From Corticibacter populi (GTDB lineage Bacteria > Pseudomonadota > Gammaproteobacteria > Burkholderiales > Burkholderiaceae_C), in NCBI RefSeq assembly GCF_004217315.1, contig NZ_SGWR01000002.1:674414-738413 (forward strand): 64,000 nt of DNA, given 5' to 3'. Of this stretch, positions 26,081-43,554 are shown piece by piece. A program made the position numbers and the translations under genes. Below the pieces are notes generated by a model. It searched no databases and had not been told where the DNA came from. It saw only the letters and a list, made by a program, of their open reading frames with translations. The number at the start of each line of letters is the position of its first letter. Position 1 is the first letter of the stretch.

Positions 26081-26251
26081 GGCGTTTTCTCCTTGAAAAT
26101 CGGGAGGCGCCCGCCGGAGACGGACCCGCAGGCCCAGCCGCTCCGGCCAGCCTTCTTCCCCCTTGTTGGCTGACGCTGTTTGCACACGTTGGAAGGACAC
26201 CGGAATGGTAGTGACAAAGCCCGGCATCATCGCCTCCATATTCAGATATTG

Positions 26252-26284
26252 TTCTTATGAATTAATTAAAAATAGAAATAAGAA
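26252..26284 (-). promoter_or_regulatory. Candidate operator of the tau operon
   Basis: Arms TTCTTAT and ATAAGAA, 19 bp apart, in an AT-rich stretch about 170-205 bp upstream of the tauA start. The position suits a LysR-type activator site; inference only. Confidence 0.35.
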
Positions 26285-26334
26285 ATAAAGGTTGCCCGCG
26301 TTTGCGCATGCCCCACCTGCCGGAGACAAACAGT

Positions 26335-26448: not shown

Positions 26449-29400
26449 ATGCAGCCCGGCTGGGTGATTCTGGTTTCGCTGCTGTATGCCGCCATGCTGT
26501 TTGCCGTGGCCTGGCTGGGCGACCGCCATCCGCACTACGTGCAGCGCGGCTGGCTGCGTACCGGCGTCTACAGCCTGGCACTGGCGGTGTACTGCTCGTC
26601 GTGGACCTTCTACGGCGCCGTCGGCACCGCAGCCCGCTATGGGCTGGGCTACCTGCCGATCTACCTCGGGCCGCTGCTGATGTTCCTGCTGGGCTGGCGC
26701 ATGATCGAGCGGCTGGCGCTGGTCGCCAAGAGCCAGAACACCGTCTCGATCGCCGACTTCATCGGCTCGCGCTTTGGCCGCTCGCCCCGCCTGGCGGCGC
26801 TGGTGACGGTGATCGCGCTGATCGCCGCCGTGCCCTATCTGGCGCTGCAGTACCGGGCCGTGGTCAGCAGCCTGAGCGTACTCACCGGCGCCGACACCAG
26901 CACCAGCCACCTGGGCGACCCGGCGCTGTACGTGGCCATCATCATGGCGCTGTTCGCCATCCTGTTCGGCACGCGCCAGGTCGATGCCACCGAGCACCGG
27001 CCCGGCCTGATGCTGGCGGTGGCGCTCGAATCGCTCGTCAAGCTGGTGGCGCTGGTGGCCATCGGCCTGCTGGCACTGCACTGGTTCGGCGGCTACGACC
27101 TGTCGGCAGTGGAGGCCTCGCGCCAGTTGCTGCGCAGCACCACACCGGTGGGCTTCACGGCGCAGACGCTGCTGGCCTTTGCCGCCATCATCTGCCTGCC
27201 GCGCCAGTTCCACGTCGCCATCGTCGAATGCGGCGAGGTCGCCGACATCCGGCGCGCGCGCTGGCTGTTCGGCCTGTACCTGGTGATCGTCAGCGCCATG
27301 GTGCTGCCCATTGCCGCCGCCGGCGTGGAACTCTTCGGCATGGAAGGCGGCGTCGCGCCCGACAGCTTCGTGCTGGCGCTGCCGCTCGCACTGAACCGCG
27401 ACCTGCTGGCGCTGGGCGCCTACATCGGCGGCTTTTCGGCGGCCACCGGCATGGTCATCGTCGTCAGCGTGGCGCTCTCGAACATGGTCAGCAACGACCT
27501 GGTCATGCCGCTGCTGCTTCGGCGCGGCTGGCTCTCCGGCCCTGCCGGAACTGCCGGAACCGCCGGAACCGCCGCCGCGCCGCGCCGCGCCGGCGGCGAC
27601 GCTCCGCCGCTGGCCAACATGGCACCCACCGTGCTGTGGGTGCGGCGCCTGTCCATCATGGCGCTGGCCGCGCTCGCCTACGGCTATTCGCGCGGCACCG
27701 CCAGCCACACCGAGCTGGCCAGCTTCGGCCTGATGGCCTTTGCCGCCGTGGCCCAGTTCGCCCCGGCGCTGCTGGCCGGCCTGTACTGGCACGGCGCCAG
27801 CCGCCGCGGCGTCGAGGCCGGCCTGCTGGCAGGCTTTGGCGTGTGGTGCTACACGCTGCTGCTGCCCAGCTTCGTCGAGGCCGGCTGGCTGCCCGGCGGC
27901 TGGCTGGCCACCGGCCCCTTCGGGCTGGACTGGCTGCGCCCCCACCATCTGTTCGGCAGCCGCGGCTGGGACGCGCTCACCCACGGCACCTTCTGGTCGC
28001 TGCTGCTGAACGTGCTGACACTGGTGCTGGTGTCGCTGCGCTGGCGCCCGGGCCTGACCGAGCAGATGCAGGCCCAGCCCTTTCTCGCCCCGCCGGGCCA
28101 GGAGCGGCCCCGCTCGGCCGGCACCACCACCTTCAGCCAGGCCGACCTCCGTGTGCGCGACCTGCAAACCGTGGCCGCGCACATCATCGGCGCCGGCACG
28201 GCCGAACGGGCCTTTGCCGGGCAGGCACGAACGCGTGCCATCCGGCTGGAGCCGGAGCTGCGCGCCGACCGCCGCTGGGTGCATTTCACCGAACTGCTGC
28301 TGACCGGCGCAGTGGGCGCCTCCTCGGCGCGGCTGGTGATGACGCGCGCGCTGCAGGGCTCGGGCATGGAACTGGCCGCGGTGATGGCGGTGCTCGACGA
28401 GGCCGGCCAGGAGCTGCGCTTCAACCGCAACATCCTGCTGGCCACGCTGGAGAACATCGACCCGGGCGTGAGCGTGGTCGATGCCGAGATGCGCCTGGTG
28501 GCCTGGAACCTGCGCTATCAGCAGCTCTTCGATTACCCCGACGGCATGCTCTACGTGGGTCGCCAGGTCGCCGAGCTGATCGGCCACAACCTGCAGCGCG
28601 GCCTGCTGGGCAAGGCTCCGCCGGCCAACGTGCAGGTCGAGGTGGACAAGCGCATCGCCTACATGCGTGCCGGCTCGGCCTACACCTTCGTGCGGCAGCT
28701 GCCCGACGGCCGCTTCATCGAGCTGCGCGGCCATCCGCTGCCCGACGGCGGCTATGTGACCAGCTACAGCGACATCACCGCCTTCAAGCAGGCCGAGCGC
28801 GAGTTGCGCGAAATCAACGAAACGCTGGAGCAGCGCGTGGCCGAGCGTTCGCGCGAGCTGGCCGCCGCGCACGAATCGCGCAGCCGCTACCTCACCGCCA
28901 TCAGTCACGACGTGCTGCAGCCCATCCACGCGGCGCGCCTCTTCGCCTCGGCACTGCGCGAAGAGCACCAGCCGGCGCAGATGCAGCACCTGGCCGAGCA
29001 CGTCGATACCGCGCTGCACGCGGCCGAGGAACTGCTCGACGGCATTCTCGACATCTCGCGGCTCGATGCCGGTGCGCTGCAACCCGACATCGCCCCCGTC
29101 AACGTGCAGCCCCTGCTGCAGGAACTGGTGGCGCAGTACACCCCGCTGGCGCAACGGCGCGGCCTGCGGCTGCGCCTGCATGCCCGGGCGCTCTGGGTGC
29201 GAAGCGATGCCCGGCTGCTGCGCCGCGTGCTGCAGAACTTCGTGGCCAATGCGCTGCGCTATACGCAAAGCGGCCGCATCGTGCTGGCCGCCCGCGTACG
29301 CGGCGCCGCCGTGCAGTTGCAGGTCTGGGACAGCGGCCCCGGCATCCCGCAGGCGCACCTGCAGAACATCTACGAGGAATTCCACCGCTATCAGCAGCAT

Positions 29401-29988
29401 TTCGACTGGGATGGCCGCGGCCTGGGGCTGGGCCTGTCGATCTGCCAGCGCATCGCCCGGCTGCTGACGCACCGGCTCGATGCGCGCTCGGTGGTCGGGC
29501 GCGGCAGCATGTTTTCCATCGAGGTGCCGCGCTGCGCGGCTCCCGCTTCGGCAGCCACGGCCGCTACGGCCCGGGCCGCCACCAGTCCGGCCGACCTGCG
29601 CGGCATGAAGGTGCTGTGCCTGGACAACGACCCGGAAATCCTCGCCGGCATGCGCACCCTGCTGGGCCGCTGGGGGGTGCAGGCGCTGTGCGCCGCCAGC
29701 CTCGACGAGGCCCGCCAGGCCATGGCCGAAGCGCCCGACTTCCTGCTCTCGGACTTCCATCTGCATGAACAGTGCGACGGCATCGAAGCCCTCGATACGC
29801 TGCGCCGCCAGGCACCACGGCTCGCCGGCGCGCTGCTGACAGCCGATGGCAGCGACGCCCTCAAGACCCGCGCCAGGGCGCACGGCTATGCGGTCCTGAC
29901 CAAGCCTGCCAAACCCGCCTCGCTGCGCAGCCTGCTGGCGGCGCAGCGGTCGTCCGCCGGCGCACTCAACGCAAACCCAGCCGATTGA
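26449..29988 (+). CDS. crbS: SSS-domain hybrid sensor histidine kinase CrbS (acetate switch)
   Basis: A 1179-residue membrane sensor. Residues 1 to about 530 form a sodium:solute-symporter-like module with about 13 membrane helices. A PAS domain follows (about 665-775, NILLATLENIDPGVSVVDAEMRLVAWN), then a coiled coil, a HisKA domain with the phosphorylated His820 in ISHDVLQPIHAARLF, and a HATPase (NALRYTQSGRI, DSGPGIP, GRGLGLGLSI). The C-terminal receiver has Asp1102 (LLSDFHLHEQCDG). This architecture, the LuxR-type regulator next door and nearby acs/actP identify CrbS of the CrbS/CrbR acetate-utilisation system; CbrA is the closest alternative family. AAGGAGA precedes the ATG. A 9-bp tandem repeat (about 27541-27575) encodes AGTAGTAGT in a loop. 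Confidence 0.9.
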   Translation: MQPGWVILVSLLYAAMLFAVAWLGDRHPHYVQRGWLRTGVYSLALAVYCSSWTFYGAVGTAARYGLGYLPIYLGPLLMFLLGWRMIERLALVAKSQNTVSIADFIGSRFGRSPRLAALVTVIALIAAVPYLALQYRAVVSSLSVLTGADTSTSHLGDPALYVAIIMALFAILFGTRQVDATEHRPGLMLAVALESLVKLVALVAIGLLALHWFGGYDLSAVEASRQLLRSTTPVGFTAQTLLAFAAIICLPRQFHVAIVECGEVADIRRARWLFGLYLVIVSAMVLPIAAAGVELFGMEGGVAPDSFVLALPLALNRDLLALGAYIGGFSAATGMVIVVSVALSNMVSNDLVMPLLLRRGWLSGPAGTAGTAGTAAAPRRAGGDAPPLANMAPTVLWVRRLSIMALAALAYGYSRGTASHTELASFGLMAFAAVAQFAPALLAGLYWHGASRRGVEAGLLAGFGVWCYTLLLPSFVEAGWLPGGWLATGPFGLDWLRPHHLFGSRGWDALTHGTFWSLLLNVLTLVLVSLRWRPGLTEQMQAQPFLAPPGQERPRSAGTTTFSQADLRVRDLQTVAAHIIGAGTAERAFAGQARTRAIRLEPELRADRRWVHFTELLLTGAVGASSARLVMTRALQGSGMELAAVMAVLDEAGQELRFNRNILLATLENIDPGVSVVDAEMRLVAWNLRYQQLFDYPDGMLYVGRQVAELIGHNLQRGLLGKAPPANVQVEVDKRIAYMRAGSAYTFVRQLPDGRFIELRGHPLPDGGYVTSYSDITAFKQAERELREINETLEQRVAERSRELAAAHESRSRYLTAISHDVLQPIHAARLFASALREEHQPAQMQHLAEHVDTALHAAEELLDGILDISRLDAGALQPDIAPVNVQPLLQELVAQYTPLAQRRGLRLRLHARALWVRSDARLLRRVLQNFVANALRYTQSGRIVLAARVRGAAVQLQVWDSGPGIPQAHLQNIYEEFHRYQQHFDWDGRGLGLGLSICQRIARLLTHRLDARSVVGRGSMFSIEVPRCAAPASAATAATARAATSPADLRGMKVLCLDNDPEILAGMRTLLGRWGVQALCAASLDEARQAMAEAPDFLLSDFHLHEQCDGIEALDTLRRQAPRLAGALLTADGSDALKTRARAHGYAVLTKPAKPASLRSLLAAQRSSAGALNANPAD

Positions 29989-30598
29989 CGATGGCCACCG
30001 CCTGCGTGCGGTTGGATGCTCCCAGCTTGCGCAGGATCGCCGTCATGTGGGCCTTGATGGTCGCCTCCGAGATGCCCAGTTCATGGGCGATCTGCTTGTT
30101 GAGCCGGCCCGCCGCCACCATCTGCAGCACCTTGGCCTGCTGGGGCGTAAGCTCGCCGATGCGCGCGGCAATGCGCTGCTCCTCCTCGCTGGTGGCAGCA
30201 CCTTGCATGGCCGCTGGCGGAAACCACGGCTCGCCATCGAGGATGCACTGCAGCGCCGCCGCCAGCGTTGCCACGTCGGAGGACTTCGGGATGAAGCCGA
30301 ACGCCCCGTGGTCCATGGCGCGGCGCATCGATTGCACATCCTCGTGGGCCGAGACCACCGCCACCGGCAGCTGCGGATGGCGCGTGCGCAGCCGCGCCAG
30401 CGGATCGAAGCCGCTGCCACCGGGCATGCTCAGGTCCAGCAGCAGCAAATCGGCATCCGGGTATGCCTCCACCAGCGCATACAGGCCCTCGACATGCTCT
30501 GCCTCATGCACCACCACGTCCGGCAACAGCCGCGCCAGCGTGGCGCGCAGCGCCTCGCGAAACAGCGGGTGGTCGTCGGCAATCAGCAGGGTGGGCAT
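29966..30598 (-). CDS. crbR: LuxR-family response regulator CrbR (acetate switch)
   Basis: DNA-binding response regulator of 210 residues, predicted to activate acs and related genes on phosphorylation by CrbS. The receiver domain (MPTLLIADDHPLFREAL) has phosphoacceptor Asp55 in LLLLDLSMPGGSG and the Lys of FIPKSS. The C-terminal GerE/LuxR helix-turn-helix is LTPQQAKVLQMVAAGRLNKQIAHELGISEATIKAHMTAILRKLG. Its 3' end overlaps crbS by 23 bp in convergent orientation, so the two stop codons lie inside each other's gene. ATG at 30604 (MCMPTLL) is an alternative start. It is transcribed away from the adjacent TonB-receptor gene. Confidence 0.9.
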   Translation of the reverse strand: MPTLLIADDHPLFREALRATLARLLPDVVVHEAEHVEGLYALVEAYPDADLLLLDLSMPGGSGFDPLARLRTRHPQLPVAVVSAHEDVQSMRRAMDHGAFGFIPKSSDVATLAAALQCILDGEPWFPPAAMQGAATSEEEQRIAARIGELTPQQAKVLQMVAAGRLNKQIAHELGISEATIKAHMTAILRKLGASNRTQAVAIVNRLGLR

Positions 30599-30849: not shown

Positions 30850-33024
30850 ATGCTTGTCACCCGTCGCTCCTGGCCCATGCACCGCATCGCGCTGGCCGTT
30901 TCGTCCCTGCTGGTCGGCACGGCCGCGCTGGCCCAGACCGAGGCCCCCGAGGCTGCGCAGGCCAGCGCGGCCAATGCGCAGGTTCTCCCCGAAGTCACCA
31001 TCCGCAGCAAGTACGAACGCGAAGACCTGCCGTCCCGTGCGCCAGGCCTCAAGGCCGCGTCGGGTGCGCGGCTGGGCATCCTGGGCGCGACATCGATCGT
31101 CGATGCCCCGGTGCATGTCAATGCCTACACGCGCGAGCTGGCCGAGGATTGGTCGGCGCTGACGCTGCAGGACGTGCTGGAGAATGACTCCGCCGTCGTC
31201 TTCACCACCAACAAGAACCACCTGCTGCAGAACTTCAACCTGCGCGGCCTGGACATGACTGCGATGGACATCGCCACCAACGGTCTGTACGGCATCGCGC
31301 CGGCCAACTCGGTGCCGATCGAGATGTTCGAGCGCGTCGAGGTGCTGCGCGGCCCCAACGTGCTGCTCTCGGGCATGCCGCCGGGCTCCAGCGTGGCCGG
31401 CACCGTCAACATGGTGACCAAGCGCGCATTGCCGCGCCAGACCATTGCCGACCTGACGGTGAGCTACAGCAGCCACTCCTACTTCCAGGCCCATGCCGAC
31501 GTGGGCAAGCGCTTCGGTGACGAGGAGCGCCTGGGCATCCGCTTCAACGGCGTCTACGGCAAGGGCGAAATGGGTGCCAAGGATGAAGACCAGAGCCGCC
31601 GCGTCGGCGCGCTGGGTCTGGATTACCTGGGTGACCGGGCCCGCTTCTCGCTGGATCTTTACAAGAGCGTCAACAAGATCGATGGCGGCAGCCCCGGCAT
31701 GTTCAGCTTCGCGGGCAACGCGGCGATCGTCGGCGTTGGTTACCTCTTGTCCCCGCCCTCCGGCGACACCAACATGTTCCGTGGCACGCATGGCAAGTAC
31801 GACAACAGCGGCGTGTTGGCCCGCGCCGAGCTGGATTTCAACAGCGACTGGCAAGGCTACATTGCCGCCGGCGGCTCCGAGGCCGAGGGCAAGGGCCTGC
31901 TGTTCGGCACCCGCGCCATCGTCACCGGCGCGGACGGCACCACGCGCGGCGCCATCTACAACGTGCACACCAAGTCCGAGCGCCGCACGGCCGAGGCTGG
32001 CGTGATCGGCAAGTTCGACACCGGGGCCATCCAGCACCGGCTGCAACTGTCGGCCAACATCCTCAAGCACAAGGAAGGCACCTACAACACGGCCTGCGCC
32101 TATTGCTACACCACCAACATGTACGAACCGGTGACGCCGACTTTCCCCGCCGCGCCCACCTGGGGTGGCTATACCGTCAAGAACGACTTCCGCTCACTGG
32201 CCGTGGCGGACACGCTGAGCTTTGCCGACGACAAGCTGCTGCTGACCATTGGCGGCCGGCACCAGACCGTCAAGACGCCGCTGGTCAGCAACAGATCGTC
32301 CGACTATAGCGAAAGCCGCTTCTCGCCCATGCTCGCTGCCGTGGTGCGTCCGTGGGGCGAGCAGATCTCGCTGTTCGGCAATTACACCGAGGGGCTGGAG
32401 CCGGGTCAGGTCGTCGGCACTGGCTATACCAACACGGGAGAGGCCCTGGCGCCCAAAGTCACCAAGCAGTTCGAACTGGGCGTGAAGGTGCAGGCCGGTG
32501 AACTGACCCACACCTTCAGCGCCTATCAGATCAAGCGGCCCTCGTTCATCAGCAACAACGCCTCTCCCCTTCCCACCCTGGTGGACGACGGCGAGCAGCG
32601 CCTGCGCGGGCTGGAGTGGAGCGCATTCGGAAACCTGACCAAGGACGTGTCGCTGCTGGGCGGCATCACCTACATCGAATCTGAACAGCGCAACACCAAC
32701 CTGGACACCTACGGTACGCCCGATTGGCGCGCCCGTATCGGCATGGACTGGACAACTCCAGTACAGGGCCTGAAGGTCGGTGGCCGGGTGATCTACACTG
32801 GCAAGCAGTGGTTGAACTCTGCCAACACGATCCGTCTGCCATCATGGAATCGTCTGGACCTGAACGCCAGCTATGCGACCAAACTCGGCAACATTCCGGT
32901 GCGCTTCAACGGCAGCGTCGAGAACGTCACCGACAAGAACTACTGGATCGGCACCTTCTCCGACGGCTTCGCGATGCCTGGCGCCCCGCGCACCTTCAAG
33001 CTGTCGGCCACCGTGTCGTTCTGA
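30850..33024 (+). CDS. TonB-dependent siderophore receptor
   Basis: Outer-membrane receptor of 724 residues without an STN domain. The signal peptide ends at ALAQ near residue 29, and LPEVTIRS is a plausible TonB box. The plug (about 75-200) has LQDVLENDSAVVFTTNKNHLLQNFNLRGLDM and VEVLRGPNVLLSGMPPGSSVAGTVNMVTKRA, the pattern of the siderophore-receptor family (FhuE/FpvA/FoxA-like). The barrel ends in FKLSATVSF. ATG at 30850 has AGAGGA 6 nt upstream. With the Fur-like box, it is probably iron-repressed; the siderophore is unknown. It separates crbR from acs, its presumed target, and so may be a later insertion. Confidence 0.92.
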   Translation: MLVTRRSWPMHRIALAVSSLLVGTAALAQTEAPEAAQASAANAQVLPEVTIRSKYEREDLPSRAPGLKAASGARLGILGATSIVDAPVHVNAYTRELAEDWSALTLQDVLENDSAVVFTTNKNHLLQNFNLRGLDMTAMDIATNGLYGIAPANSVPIEMFERVEVLRGPNVLLSGMPPGSSVAGTVNMVTKRALPRQTIADLTVSYSSHSYFQAHADVGKRFGDEERLGIRFNGVYGKGEMGAKDEDQSRRVGALGLDYLGDRARFSLDLYKSVNKIDGGSPGMFSFAGNAAIVGVGYLLSPPSGDTNMFRGTHGKYDNSGVLARAELDFNSDWQGYIAAGGSEAEGKGLLFGTRAIVTGADGTTRGAIYNVHTKSERRTAEAGVIGKFDTGAIQHRLQLSANILKHKEGTYNTACAYCYTTNMYEPVTPTFPAAPTWGGYTVKNDFRSLAVADTLSFADDKLLLTIGGRHQTVKTPLVSNRSSDYSESRFSPMLAAVVRPWGEQISLFGNYTEGLEPGQVVGTGYTNTGEALAPKVTKQFELGVKVQAGELTHTFSAYQIKRPSFISNNASPLPTLVDDGEQRLRGLEWSAFGNLTKDVSLLGGITYIESEQRNTNLDTYGTPDWRARIGMDWTTPVQGLKVGGRVIYTGKQWLNSANTIRLPSWNRLDLNASYATKLGNIPVRFNGSVENVTDKNYWIGTFSDGFAMPGAPRTFKLSATVSF

Positions 33025-33120: not shown

Positions 33121-35067
<1,947 letters not shown>

Positions 35068-35149: not shown

Positions 35150-36817
35150 TCAGTGATCGCTGGCCGCCGAAGCGCCGATGCCGGTCTGGCTGCGCACCGT
35201 CAGGGCATCGAAGGCGGCCCGCTCGCGCGCGGCGCGTGGGCTGCGGTCGGTCACCGAGAAGAACCATATCGCGACAAAAGCCAGCGGGATAGAGAGAATG
35301 CCCGGATTCGGGAACGGCGTGACGGGCGCGGCGAAGCCGAACACATCCACCCACACGGTCTTGCTCAGCACCACCCACAGGGTCGCCACCAGGAGGCCCG
35401 TGAAACCGCCGATGGTCGCGCCGCGCGTGGTGCAGCCGCGCCAGCCGATCGACAGCAGCAGCACCGGGAAGTTCGCGCTGGCGGCGATCGCGAAGGCCAG
35501 TCCCACCATGAAGGCCACGTTCTGGTTCTCGAAGATGATGCCCAGCAGGATCGCCACGACGCCCAGCGAGATGGTGGAGATCTTGGAGATGCGCATCTGC
35601 TTTTTCTCGGTGGCGCGACCCCGGGCGAACACGTTGGCGTATAGATCGTGCGAGATCGCCGCGGCGCCAGCCAGCGCCAGTCCGGCCACCACCGCGACGA
35701 TGGTGGCGAAGGTCACGGCCGCCAGAAAACCCAGCAGCAGGCTGCCGCCCACGGCATTGGCCAGGTGCACCGCCACCATGTTGGTGCCGCCGATCAGGCC
35801 CTTGATCATGTCGAAGCTGCCGTCGGCGGCCGCGGTGTAGTACTCCGGGTGCCGCACCAGCAGCGCGATGGCGCCGAAGCCGATGATGAAGGTGAGGATG
35901 TAGAAATAGCCGATGAAGGTGCTCGCGTAGATCACCGACTTGCGCGCCTCCTTGGCGTTCGAGACCGTGAAGAAGCGCATCAGGATGTGTGGCAGGCCGG
36001 CCGTGCCGAAGGCCAGCCCCAAGCCCAGCGAGAGCGCATTGAGCGGATTGCTGATGAGCGACTGGCCCGGTGCCAGGATGGCATTGCCCGAGGGGTGCAC
36101 GCGGCTGGCCTCGGCCAGCATCGCGTCGGGGCTGAACTTGAAGGCCGCCAGCACCAGGATCGTCATCAGCGTGGCGCCAAACAGCATCAGCACCGCCTTG
36201 ATGATCTGCACCCAGGTAGTGGCCGTCATGCCGCCGAAAGTCACGTAGACCATCATCAGGCTGCCGACGATGATCACCGCCCACTGGTACTGGATGCCGA
36301 ACAGCAGCTCGATCAGCTTGCCCGCGCCCACCATCTGTGCAATCAGATACAGCGCGATGATGGTCAGCGAGGCGCTGGCCGCCAGCACGCGGATCGGTGT
36401 CTGCGAGAGGCGGAACGAGGTCACGTCGGCGAAGTTGTACTTGCCCAGGTTGCGCAGCCGCTCGGCGATCAGGAACATCACCACCGGCCAGCCGAACAGG
36501 AAACCGATGGCATAGACCATGCCGTCGAAGCCGCTGACGTACACCATGCCGGCAATGCCCAGGAACGAGGCTGCCGAGAGGTAATCTCCGGCAATCGCCA
36601 GGCCATTCTGGAAGCCGGTGATGCCGCCCCCGCCGGTGTAGAAGTCGGACGTGGTCTTGGTCTTGCGTGCGGCCCACCAGGTAATGCCCATGGTGCCGGC
36701 AATGAACACCAGGAACATCACGATGGCCGGCACATTGGCCTTGCCGGGCTCGGCTGCGTGCGCGGCGCCGGCGGCGGCCAGCAGGCCGCCCAGGACGAGA
36801 AGGGTCTTCTTGTTCAT
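35150..36817 (-). CDS. actP: Acetate permease ActP (sodium:solute symporter)
   Basis: Inner-membrane cation/acetate symporter of 555 residues. An N-terminal signal-like helix ([22 protein letters not shown]) is followed by the solute symporter core: [43 protein letters not shown], then [20 protein letters not shown], and the C-terminal WFFSVTDRS. The pattern matches E. coli ActP (YjcG). ATG at 36817 overlaps the upstream gene's stop codon (ATGA), showing coupling to the DUF485 protein. Confidence 0.95.
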
Positions 36818-37125
36818 TGCACGTCCTTCAGCACCGCCGCGAGCAGCGGGTCGAAAACCTTGTTCGAGATGTACACATAGGCGGCAATCAGGATCACCGC
36901 GCTCAGGCACACCAGAACGGCGCCAAACACCCCCACCGTCATCGTCATCGCGCCCACCGGCCGCGCCATCAGCGCGGGGTTGTAGGCCAGCGTCAGGATG
37001 TAGCCGGCGTAGATCACCCAGGTGACCACGAAGAAGGCCATGCTGATGCGCCCGCGGCGCTTGAGAAGTTCCTGGTAGCGCGGGTGGTTCACCACCTTGG
37101 CCACCACATCGGATGAGGTACTCAT
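36814..37125 (-). CDS. yjcH: DUF485 membrane protein, YjcH
   Basis: Small inner-membrane protein of 103 residues with two membrane helices ([18 protein letters not shown] and [30 protein letters not shown]). It belongs to DUF485, almost always found next to ActP and thought to assist it. The start [24 protein letters not shown] at 37125 has AAAGGAGA upstream and matches the family's N-terminus (NHP-Y-L---R). It is first in the acetate operon; the promoter must lie upstream, where the three-unit motif at 37293-37334 is found. Confidence 0.92.
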
Positions 37126-37563
37126 GAACAGTCTCCTTTTGTTGCTGCGCATGTCCGCCGGCGTATGCGTCGGCGGGCATGCGGCACCCTGGAACAGGCC
37201 CTGGCCGGGCCGAACAGTTTCCGGGCGCAGGTTTTATCGGACGATTCAATGTAGCGATTGCCCTGGCGGTCGACCAGACGACTTTGGTCTTAAGGGTGTT
37301 CCCTTTGAGGGTGATCCCTGAAAGGGAACACCCTCATCTTGCGGGGAAAGCAACAGTCCCGCATGAACCGGCGGAGACGATCCGCGGCTGTCTCACTGCA
37401 CAGATCGACGGGTGCAGCAGGTTCGGCGCCAACAGCATTGCCCATCACGGCCTGCCCAGCGATCGCCACGGCGCACATCGCCGGCCCCGCATGGCACGCA
37501 GCACCTCATCCGCAGCGCTTGGAGGAGGAAAGCATCACAGGCTGGCCACAAGACGGCCTGCCA
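37126..37563. promoter_or_regulatory. Intergenic region upstream of yjcH-actP-acs
   Basis: About 440 bp with no supported gene. The only clear structure is the triple near-palindrome at 37293-37334. Sequence left of it, toward yjcH, must hold the promoter; no convincing sigma-70 pair or -24/-12 pair could be picked by eye. The right part, after the end of the YncE-like gene, shows nothing clear. Confidence 0.6.
37293..37334 (-). promoter_or_regulatory. Three 12-bp near-palindromes at 15-bp spacing
   Basis: AGGGTGTTCCCT (37293), AGGGTGATCCCT (37308) and AGGGAACACCCT (37323) start exactly 15 bp apart. The first and third are exact reverse complements, so the whole also forms a 14-bp perfect inverted repeat around the middle unit. 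They lie 168-209 bp upstream of yjcH. This looks like a cooperative operator or activator array, with CrbR as the natural candidate (inference). A terminator of an upstream transcript is less likely because there is no T-run. Confidence 0.6.
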
Positions 37564-38760
37564 TCAAGGCAAGCTGTTCAGGTCGATACGAACGACGCTC
37601 TCTGGCTTGCCTGCCTTGGTGCGATTGCCGTCGTTCTTCACCGAGACATACAGCACATTGTTCTCGCCATCGAAAGCCATGCTGTTGGGGTGTGGCGGCA
37701 GTGCCACGACATGCAGCAATGCGTAGCTCTCGCTGTCGAAGACCGTCAGCGTGCCCTTGCCTTCGGCAACGCGAATGCCGTTGAAGTTCGTCACGTAAAG
37801 GCGTTTGCGTTCGGCATCGAGCAAGACGTTCAACGGGTTCTGATCGGTGCGGATACGGGCCAGGCTGCGGCCGGATACCGGCTCCAGCACCACCACCTGG
37901 TGGCCCTTGCTGCGCGGTGGCATGTCTCGCCCCAGGCCCTTGTTGCGCCACGCCGAACGAAAGCCGATACCCTGGTCAACGGCAAAAATGCGCTCGCCCT
38001 GGCCGTCGTAGACGATGTTGATGGGCTGGTCGACCTCGATCTCGGCGGTATGCACCGGTACCAGTGCCTGCGTATCGATGGTGATCAGCTGGGCCTGCAG
38101 ATTGGAGACGAACAAGCGGTTGTGCGCGGCATCGAGCGCCGCGCCGGTGGATTCGAAACCCAGACCCGGCACGGTTTTCTCCAGCGTCAGCGATTCCGTA
38201 TCCACAACATACAGCAGGCTGTCGGGCTGGCCGCCATTGGCCAATGCGGGCAAATACAGGCGCTGGCGGGCCGGATCGACCAGCAGCTGCCGCAGGCTGT
38301 GCGCATAGGGCCGGCGAGCCGTGGAGTCCTCGATTTTCGGCACCAGCGCCAGCGTCGCCACCACCCGGTTGCTTTCGATGTCCACGACGCTGACGGCGCC
38401 ATCGAAGCCATGGCCCACATACACGCGCCCCTTGGCATCATCCAGTGCCAGGCCAAAGCCCCGGTGCGGCAGCTCGATGTCCGCCTGCACGGCTAATGTG
38501 TCCGGATGCAGGCGCAACAGCCGCGAAGCGCCACGCGCGGCGGCGTCCTCGGTGACATCCGGTGCCGCCACGAACACGGCATGCTGCCTGGCGCTGTATA
38601 CCAACTCGTACACGCTGGGCGCCACCTCGGCACGCACCACGGCGCCTGCCAGTTGCGCCTCGTCCACGGTCGGGGCCAGCGTTCTTTGCGCACAGCCAGC
38701 CAGTACCAGTGCCGCCAAAGCGACCGCCAGACCGGTGCCGATGTTCTTCAGATTCTTCAT
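37564..38760 (-). CDS. YncE-like beta-propeller lipoprotein
   Basis: Predicted lipoprotein of 398 residues: the signal peptide ends in the lipobox LAGC, with Cys23 as the lipidation site. The rest is a seven-bladed beta-propeller of YncE/YVTN type, with repeats such as DDAKGRVYVGHGFDGAVSVVDIES, DAAHNRLFVSNLQAQLITIDT, DAERKRLYVTNFNGIRV and DGENNVLYVSVKNDG. E. coli YncE is a Fur-regulated periplasmic protein of poorly known role, and a Fur-like site precedes this gene too, so a role in iron limitation is plausible. ATG at 38760 has GGAGA 5 nt upstream; ATG at 38772 is an alternative. No TonB receptor is adjacent. Confidence 0.85.
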   Translation of the reverse strand: MKNLKNIGTGLAVALAALVLAGCAQRTLAPTVDEAQLAGAVVRAEVAPSVYELVYSARQHAVFVAAPDVTEDAAARGASRLLRLHPDTLAVQADIELPHRGFGLALDDAKGRVYVGHGFDGAVSVVDIESNRVVATLALVPKIEDSTARRPYAHSLRQLLVDPARQRLYLPALANGGQPDSLLYVVDTESLTLEKTVPGLGFESTGAALDAAHNRLFVSNLQAQLITIDTQALVPVHTAEIEVDQPINIVYDGQGERIFAVDQGIGFRSAWRNKGLGRDMPPRSKGHQVVVLEPVSGRSLARIRTDQNPLNVLLDAERKRLYVTNFNGIRVAEGKGTLTVFDSESYALLHVVALPPHPNSMAFDGENNVLYVSVKNDGNRTKAGKPESVVRIDLNSLP

Positions 38761-38856
38761 GGTGTTCTCCATTCCGGGCCCGGCTGCAATATCCGTTGTC
38801 TCACGCGCTGCCGCCGCATTCATAGAGCGGCATGGTACACGGTCCGGCCATCATCA

Positions 38857-40061: not shown

Positions 40062-40865
40062 TCAGGGAGCCCGGCCGAGCAGTTCGGCGCGTACCAGTGG
40101 CAACTGACGGCGCGAAACCTGCAGGGCTTCCTGCGTGCCATGCAGTTCGAGCAGCCAGTGCTCGCCGTCCTGCTCCGAGCAGGCCTTGACCAGGCCGCGC
40201 ATGGCCTGGCGGGCTGCCAGTGCATTGCGGTGCACGCGCAGAAAGCGCATGCCAAAGCGCGTCTCCAGCTCATTGAGCGAACCGTCGTACAGGTATTGGC
40301 GCTCCAGCGTCTGCACCGTCACGTACTTCTGTTCGGCGCGGCAGAACAGAATGTGCGAGACCGGCACGCGCTCGGTGCGGTGGCGCTCGTTGACGATGAT
40401 GAAGTCAGCGTCCGCCGCTGACTGTGGTGCGGTGGCTGGTGCTGGCGCCGGCGGCGCTGCGCCCTGCAGCAGCAGGGCCCGCCGGAGCGCCTGGCGCAGG
40501 CGCTCCAGCCGCACCGGCTTGGTCAGGTAGTCCGCCGCGTCCAGGTCGAAGGCCTGGCTGGCGTGCTCGGCATGCGCCGTCACGAAGATGACGGCAGGTG
40601 CGCATGCCTGCTGGCGCAGCTGCCGCGCCAGGGCCACGCCATCCATGCCCGGCATCTGGATATCCAGCAGCAACACGTCGATGGCTTGCTTGTCGCGGGT
40701 GCGCTGCAGAATGTCCAGCGCCTGGCTGACGGCGGCGGCCTCGATGACCTGGCACGACAGTTCCGGCATGTCGGCCAGCAGCACGCGCAGGCGCTGGCGT
40801 GCCAAGGCTTCATCATCGACGATCAGAATGTTCATGGTGCGGTGGTGCAATCTCTGCGCATTCAT
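40062..40865 (-). CDS. LytTR-family response regulator (AlgR/LytR-like)
   Basis: DNA-binding response regulator of 267 residues. The receiver (NILIVDDEALARQRLRVLL) has Asp68 in LLLDIQMPGMDG and Lys in YLTKPV. An Ala/Pro linker leads to a LytTR domain (about 160-262, FIIVNERHRTERVPVSHILFCRAEQKYVTVQT ... FLRVHRNALAAR). The start ATG at 40865 overlaps the kinase stop codon (ATGA), typical of coupled pairs; ATG at 40835 (MNILIVDDEA) is the usual family start but lacks a ribosome-binding site. Relatives control alginate, motility or cell-surface genes; the target here is unknown. Confidence 0.9.
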   Translation of the reverse strand: MNAQRLHHRTMNILIVDDEALARQRLRVLLADMPELSCQVIEAAAVSQALDILQRTRDKQAIDVLLLDIQMPGMDGVALARQLRQQACAPAVIFVTAHAEHASQAFDLDAADYLTKPVRLERLRQALRRALLLQGAAPPAPAPATAPQSAADADFIIVNERHRTERVPVSHILFCRAEQKYVTVQTLERQYLYDGSLNELETRFGMRFLRVHRNALAARQAMRGLVKACSEQDGEHWLLELHGTQEALQVSRRQLPLVRAELLGRAP

Positions 40866-41980
40866 CGGCTAACCCCGGGCGTGGCGGGCAGCGGCTTGGC
40901 CGGCAGCACCATGCCCACCTCGTAGCGGCCATCGCGCAGGCGCTGCCTGAAGTCGGCATCCATGTCGTGCAGCAGGTGCAGACGCGCCCGTACATTCTGC
41001 AGCGCAATGCCATTGCCGGCCGTGCTGGTCACTGCTGCGCCAGGCCCGGCGACCGGCGGCACGGTGTTGCTGATGCGCACATACACCCGTGCGCCCTTGC
41101 GGCGCACCAGCACATGGATTTCGCCGCCCTGCGCGCTGGGCTCGATACCGTGCTTGATGGCATTTTCCACCAGTGGCTGCAGCAGCAGCGGCGGCACGCT
41201 GGCGCCCAGCGCATCGTCATCGACGCTCCAGCGCACGCGCAGGCGCTCGCCAAAGCGGATGCCCTCGATGCGCAGGTACTGGCGCGCGATCTCGAGTTCC
41301 TTTTCGAGGCTGGATTCGCTGCCCGGGTCCTTGAGCGCATGATGGAACAGGTCGCTCAGGTCCTCAAGCATGCGCTCGGCGGCGGGCGGGTCCTGGCGCA
41401 CCAGCGCGATCGCGCTGTTGAGCGTGTTGAAGAGGAAGTGCGGGCGGATACGCGACTGCAGCTCCGCCAGCCGGGCCACCGTGGCCGCTGGCTGGCGCGC
41501 GCGCTGGCGCAACGCCAGCATTTGCGTGAGCACGGCCGCCAGGACAATGCCCGAGAAGCCGGCAGCCAGCCAAACGCCGGGCCCGGCCGGCAAGCCCAGA
41601 TACGCGGCCAGAGCTGCGGCCAGCATACCGCACAGCCAGCCCAGCAGCACGGCAAAAGCCCATTGCACCGAGGCAGCCTGCCGACCCATCCAGTGGCGCA
41701 GGCTGCAGGCCACCAGCAGCCAGGCCAGCAGCGCAGGCAAGGCCACGCCGGTAGCCAGCGCAAAGGCGGCCAGCCAATCGGCCGCGCTGGCCGCACCGAA
41801 CAATGCGATCAATGCCAGCGGCAGTTCCACCAGCACGATGGCGCGCAGCACCACGCCGATCTGGCAGGCATCGAACAGCAGGGCCTGCGACGGCTGCGCG
41901 GCCCAGGCAACGGCCGCGCCGTGCCGGCGCCGGCCCGCTAGAATCGGCTCTTTCGCCTGTTTGGATTCGCTCCCACGCAT
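40862..41980 (-). CDS. LytS/AlgZ-type sensor histidine kinase
   Basis: Inner-membrane kinase of 372 residues with about five membrane helices (residues 40-155). A His_kinase domain follows with the phosphorylated His181 in [21 protein letters not shown], then a HATPase_c domain ([32 protein letters not shown]). This sequence type pairs with LytTR regulators, encoded directly downstream with a 4-bp overlap. No periplasmic sensor domain of note, so the signal may be sensed in the membrane. It is divergent from argH, a conserved placement in related bacteria. Confidence 0.92.
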
Positions 41981-42078
41981 TTATCTTGTTCTGTCGTCCA
42001 TTGCAGCCGTGCGGGCCCAGTCGGCCGCCGGCCATTGCGATGCCCATGACTGGCAACCCGACCATTATCCCGAGTTCC

Positions 42079-43554
<1,476 letters not shown>

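Follow-up and report, generated by a model that had tools for sequence, protein, structure and literature searches.

A dyad array abutting an ACTU-type CrbR site upstream of the acetate operon yjcH-actP-acs in Corticibacter populi

The window, i.e., the whole stretch of 64,000 nucleotides that was analysed, carries the acetate operon yjcH-actP-acs on its minus strand, downstream of an array of three 12-mers. This annotation agrees with an earlier note on this DNA, which had assigned the array to the promoter region of the operon. The features of the locus are as follows.

26449-29988, plus strand: crbS-like hybrid histidine kinase (membrane N-terminus, PAS, HisKA, HATPase and REC)
29966-30598, minus strand: crbR/erdR-like LuxR-type response regulator (best NCBIfam model ErdR; predicted start)
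30850-33024, plus strand: TonB-dependent receptor, beyond acs
33121-35067, minus strand: acs, acetate--CoA ligase
35150-36817, minus strand: actP, cation/acetate symporter (approximate, predicted start)
36814-37125, minus strand: yjcH (DUF485), first gene of the operon (start predicted from a ribosome-binding site and the start in a congener)
37248-37253, minus strand: predicted -10 element TACATT (two of six positions invariant in the genus)
37276-37292, minus strand: ACTU-type CrbR site TAAGACCAAAGTCGTCT, the best 17-mer of the window, abutting the array
37293-37304, minus strand: unit 3 in operon orientation (AGGGAACACCCT), the putative promoter-proximal accessory dyad, abutting ACTU; genus-conserved copy
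37308-37319, minus strand: unit 2 (AGGGATCACCCT), an extra copy, found at the yjcH promoter only in the genome of the window among 10 of the genus
37323-37334, minus strand: unit 1 (AGGGTGTTCCCT), an extra copy, inverted relative to unit 3 and likewise found at the yjcH promoter only in the genome of the window among the 10
37564-38823, minus strand: gene upstream of the array

The acetate two-component system that had been placed near the operon is present as a CrbS/CrbR-like pair encoded at 26449-30598. The regulator scored 214.6 bits against the NCBIfam model ErdR (the Pseudomonas name of CrbR), under the model cut-off of 390. The kinase has 10 hydrophobic stretches in a simple scan, and its first 667 residues match the solved histidine kinase 10ed (E 1.2e-64); Pfam, with the SSF model included, gave no match for its N-terminus. 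We take the two proteins as a CrbS/CrbR-like pair from these similarities. CrbR orthologues were found in 9 of the 10 genus genomes including that of the window, with 66-69% identity in the other eight, and none was found in the tenth (G205, 80% complete). The best match of the same search in 10 genomes outside the genus was 43% identical. Just upstream of the crbS-like gene, an AT-rich stretch (26241-26290) stands out in the 67% G+C window, and gave several low-complexity matches in the ACTU scan described below.

The distance of 168-209 bp between the array and the operon, as given in the earlier note, is correct if yjcH begins at the ATG at 37125, which has AGGAG upstream, while the longest open reading frame begins at 37152. 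The TACATT at 37248-37253 lies at the spacing expected for a -10 element from the geometry of the Pseudomonas ACTU promoters. The hexamer TGGTCG (37271-37276), located 17 bp upstream of it, is a poor -35 element. A consensus scan found no sigma-70-like site, so the start site is a prediction from this geometry. No DNA similarity to the promoter and yjcH was found in plasmids; for acs, the best plasmid matches, at 67-68%, came from Microvirga, Rhizobium and Agrobacterium records.

The plus strand carries the 12-mers AGGGTGTTCCCT, AGGGTGATCCCT and AGGGAACACCCT at an exact 15-bp period, with first positions at 37293, 37308 and 37323, respectively; read along the operon, on the minus strand, the order is AGGGTGTTCCCT, AGGGATCACCCT, AGGGAACACCCT. 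The coordinates and the reverse complementarity of units 1 and 3 described earlier were both borne out by the sequence. The description of the array as a long perfect inverted repeat holds for its outer arms, which form an exact inverted repeat of 14 bp between units 1 and 3, and fails for the whole 42 bp, which make an imperfect palindrome with 36 of 42 positions matching. Units 2 and 3 are identical at 13 of 15 positions as direct repeats on the minus strand.

AGGG-N4-CCCT matches three times in the 64-kb window, each time at a unit of the array. In 300 simulated windows with the same dinucleotide transitions as the real one (first-order Markov), evenly spaced GGG-N4-CCC triples with a period of 11-30 did not occur at all, in line with the earlier view that such regular spacing is unusual for chance. 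Single GGG-N4-CCC sites were common, about 40 per simulated window versus 26 in the real one. Base composition thus does not account for the array. The motif AGGGTGNNCCCT with one mismatch was not enriched by itself in the window (4 found against 4.2 expected). In the whole genome, AGGGTGNNCCCT occurs at five places, three of which are the array, and the other two read as inside genes. The unusual feature of the array is its regular clustering, rather than the abundance of the motif.

The published CrbR motif lies beside the array. The text of PMC5715377 describes ACTU as a 17-bp inverted repeat of imperfect symmetry that spans -52 to -36 in the acs promoter of P. fluorescens and is required for CrbR-dependent activation; among 112 upstream sequences of 31 Gammaproteobacteria, it reports the motif in 91. 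According to the text of PMC8402216, ErdR shifts the promoters of scpC, PP_0354 and actP-I, whereas it does not shift that of acsA-I, in which an ACTU motif was not identifiable. A matrix was made from five sites in Table 4 of PMC5715377, some of them verified and some only predicted in that table. With this matrix, TAAGACCAAAGTCGTCT scored 20.1 bits, against 14.2 bits for the next other site on both strands of the 64 kb, and the 15 top-scoring matches of the window included no array unit. The idea that the array is itself the published CrbR motif did not survive this motif comparison, since the units fail to match and ACTU occupies the adjacent 37276-37292.

Conservation was examined in 10 genomes of the genus, which are related and hence do not count as 10 independent cases. 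All 10 have a yjcH match, and all 10 have an ACTU-like site upstream of one yjcH copy (18.9-20.8 bits), whereas the other 29 of the 39 yjcH-like loci, including the second copy in G202 (L049), scored at most 11.6 bits. A single dyad stands directly before ACTU at the same offset in all 10, as GGG-N4-CCC in seven and GGA-N4-CCC in three. In a gapless alignment anchored on ACTU, all 10 share GG at -11 and -10 and CCC at -4 to -2, position -9 is G in seven and A in three, and 27 of 30 dyad base pairs are complementary. None of the 63 columns at -75 to -13 is invariant among eight representatives, chosen by grouping the genus genomes by upstream identity, and the same was seen across all 10. For ACTU, mean pairwise identity was 0.89, against 0.67 across the dyad and 0.29 upstream. 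The ACTU value is inflated because the alignment was anchored on the ACTU pattern from the genus yjcH promoters, so that the columns specified in this pattern were bound to be invariant; the pattern included neither the dyad columns nor the GG that follows ACTU. The sequence, position, conservation and copy number of the dyads are direct observations.

The three-unit array as such is not conserved in relatives, an outcome that the earlier note had named as counting against its reading: it is absent from the nine congeners, although the dyad next to ACTU is kept in 10/10. Two extra GGG-N4-CCC units at the yjcH promoter were found only in the genome of the window. One step further upstream (-26), the other genus genomes have 0-2 of three dyad pairs; two steps further upstream (-41), G086 and G206 have three of three, formed by other bases than GGG/CCC. 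Six of the 10 genus genomes match a two-unit pattern when up to two mismatches are allowed, and the only exact match was the array of the window. The tandem GGGGCTTTCCCTTTC of three congeners (G086, G200 and G206) was considered as a counterpart of the array and rejected because it sits at a different gene. This tandem, GGGGCTTTCCCTTTC-GGGGCTTTCCCT with a 15-bp period, is common to L060, L063 and L064 (from G200, G086 and G206, respectively) at about 1501-1527. In L043 and L044 (from G203 and G188), immediately upstream of ACTU, CCCTTA recurs at a distance of 14 bp, which may mark a separate onset of repeat growth at the same place.

Outside the yjcH promoters of the genus, the dyad was not found beside the ACTU-like sites that were compared. 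The ACTU core with up to one mismatch occurs in 26 of 399 family genomes at 29 places, a search with a genus-like core that could miss diverged sites. Six of these places are yjcH promoters, in the six genus genomes of that sample, and 20 of the remaining 23 lie inside an open frame of at least 190 codons, although frames of this kind say little about coding where DNA is rich in G+C; two family matches (L072 and L090) stand shortly before open reading frames and could be promoters. Class-wide, the core was found in 32 of 370 genomes at 35 places, and 29 loci from these served as the class control, the rest being the window's own site and five places without a locus. GG or CCC at the dyad offsets was seen in none of the 52 other ACTU-like matches (23 family, 29 class). 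The only one of these 29 class loci clearly before acs was L106, from another order of the class, where the site TAAGACCAAAGTCTCAT precedes an acs-like gene without a dyad; among the 16 yjcH-like loci of the class besides that of the window, only L129 had an ACTU-like site, also without a dyad. Since, among these loci, only L106 and L129 have ACTU before acs or yjcH, the comparison outside the genus rests on these two promoters.

The composite of dyad and ACTU in the genome of the window occurs at one place, the other 16 matches all having three mismatches, and the reversed control gave 58 matches. In an order sample of 300 genomes, in which the genome of the window was the sole match from its genus, four genomes matched, and the three besides that of the window have three mismatches and look coding. 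The two-unit pattern with up to three mismatches matched in four of 200 family genomes, namely at the array of the window and at three single places with three mismatches. The three-unit pattern was found in 10 stretches across a collection of 84,980 species, which may leave out the window's own genome. A widespread element was rejected as an explanation, because these stretches look like unrelated 15-bp repeats (judged from about 250 bp around each and the open reading frames of L058).

From the sequence, the array is best read as a genus-specific dyad that is joined to the CrbR site and has undergone local multiplication in the genome of the window. Its fixed spacing, dyad symmetry and single location suggest a protein-bound accessory operator. 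We tentatively propose an expanded accessory operator of a CrbR-controlled acetate promoter, most likely bound by extra CrbR dimers, with a probability of roughly 0.45. Additional CrbR dimers are favoured because the dyads have the same 3-4-3 layout as ACTU and continue its step of 14-15 bp. Several CrbR dimers on the composite operator, as the earlier note had suggested for the array, are possible because the unit touching ACTU is the dyad conserved in 10/10. Against the CrbR reading, the half-site GGG differs from the GAC of ACTU, the array units are missing from the top ACTU scores, three of the 10 genus dyads have GGA instead of GGG, and the extra copies have no conservation at all. Furthermore, CrbR would have no general need for the dyad, since the published motif is 17 bp and L106 and L129 are without it.

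A second regulator acting beside CrbR, as co-activator or repressor, with its sites multiplied in the species of the window, is a substantial alternative, and we regard it as nearly as likely as additional CrbR dimers. A different protein is quite possible because the half-site GGG/CCC is unlike the GAC/GTC of ACTU, and the dyad symmetry and genus conservation suggest a dimeric binder. Many acetate promoters take several regulators. Against this reading, exact AGGGTGNNCCCT outside the array has only two places, both read as lying within genes, so that there is no sign of a regulon, at least for the exact motif; a looser one might still conceal a regulon. The zero gap between dyad and ACTU in 10/10 also suggests one machine. 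The nearest other annotated regulator is a LytTR-type response regulator (40062-40865), and the binding sites of this family are described otherwise. This regulator is encoded together with a His_kinase-family sensor at 40062-41980 on the minus strand, beside argininosuccinate lyase (41803-43554, plus strand); the pair resembles algR/algZ.

It is improbable, in our estimate, that only the promoter-proximal unit functions and that the other two arose by a recent tandem and inverted duplication without effect. The 13/15 direct identity of units 2 and 3, the exact 14-bp inversion between units 1 and 3, and the absence of the extra copies from the yjcH promoter of nine congeners would fit such an event. 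Nevertheless, AGGG-N4-CCCT is perfect in all three units and recurs at exactly 15 bp, whereas their central and spacer bases differ, so the dyad bases appear to have been kept. Far less credible still is the idea that the inverted repeat works as a terminator or RNA hairpin and keeps transcription of the upstream gene (37564-38823, minus strand) out of the promoter. The minus-strand RNA does fold into one hairpin (-33.9 kcal/mol, z -6.55), but neither strand has a T-run behind the stem, the three terminator-like matches of the scan do not include the array, and the structure would sit upstream of the predicted start site. Moreover, the long form exists only in this genome; the nine congeners fold otherwise, at -9.7 to -19.3 versus -31.2 kcal/mol for the same stretch, from which it follows that the stable hairpin is a consequence of the unit expansion. 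A terminator or a conserved RNA hairpin is unlikely.

In the proposed expanded accessory operator, the layout of the genus is ACTU joined without a gap to an upstream GG(G/A)-N4-CCC dyad. In the genome of the window, this dyad would have been copied to three units spaced at 15 bp, in continuation of the 14-bp step between ACTU and the first dyad. With a start site placed as in the Pseudomonas geometry, ACTU would lie at about -52 to -36 and the dyad centres at about -58, -73 and -88. Activated CrbR would occupy ACTU first, further CrbR dimers may then bind the dyads cooperatively, and the extra dimers could give a stronger or sharper acetate response. The promoter start, the protein binding, the identity of the protein and its effect are what we infer here. 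A more far-reaching version, which we consider doubtful, is that CrbR reads two dyad classes, GAC-N4-GTC (ACTU) and GG(G/A)-N4-CCC, the latter so far seen only in the genus. CrbR would form a phased row of dimers in 14-15 bp steps; local copying of the 15-bp unit would determine whether the row has one, two or three extra dimers and would thereby tune the acetate response between species.

The element looks like an addition to the acetate switch that can expand, a conserved second element joined to the published 17-bp operator. One unit in nine species and three in one form a natural copy-number series, which could serve to link an operator repeat with expression. As the window belongs to the Burkholderiales, it places a CrbS/CrbR-type acetate switch in that group; a literature search on CrbS in betaproteobacteria gave a single paper, unrelated as judged by title and abstract.

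Response regulators of the NarL/LuxR type, such as DesR and VraR, occupy several adjacent unequal sites. The present promoter would resemble theirs in having one strong site with neighbouring dyads that may be weaker dimer sites, while the sites and their spacing differ. The text of PMC5715377, PMC8402216, PMC9927353 and PMC9603970 makes no mention of GGG-N4-CCC beside ACTU, figures and subscription papers lying outside this scope. According to the text of PMC9603970, EmaR of Acinetobacter baumannii is likewise an ErdR-like regulator with a short predicted motif, but that motif, xCTTATxxxxAT(A)xAT, is unlike the GGG-N4-CCC of the array and its system is for ethanol metabolism. With the ACTU promoters of Pseudomonas and other Gammaproteobacteria described in the text of PMC5715377, the promoter in the window has in common the 17-mer, the spacing of a predicted -10-like element and the actP and acs targets, and, as in the systems activated by CrbR/ErdR there, a putative CrbS/CrbR-like pair is encoded nearby. 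It differs from them in the GG(G/A)-N4-CCC dyad that abuts ACTU upstream and is present in three copies.
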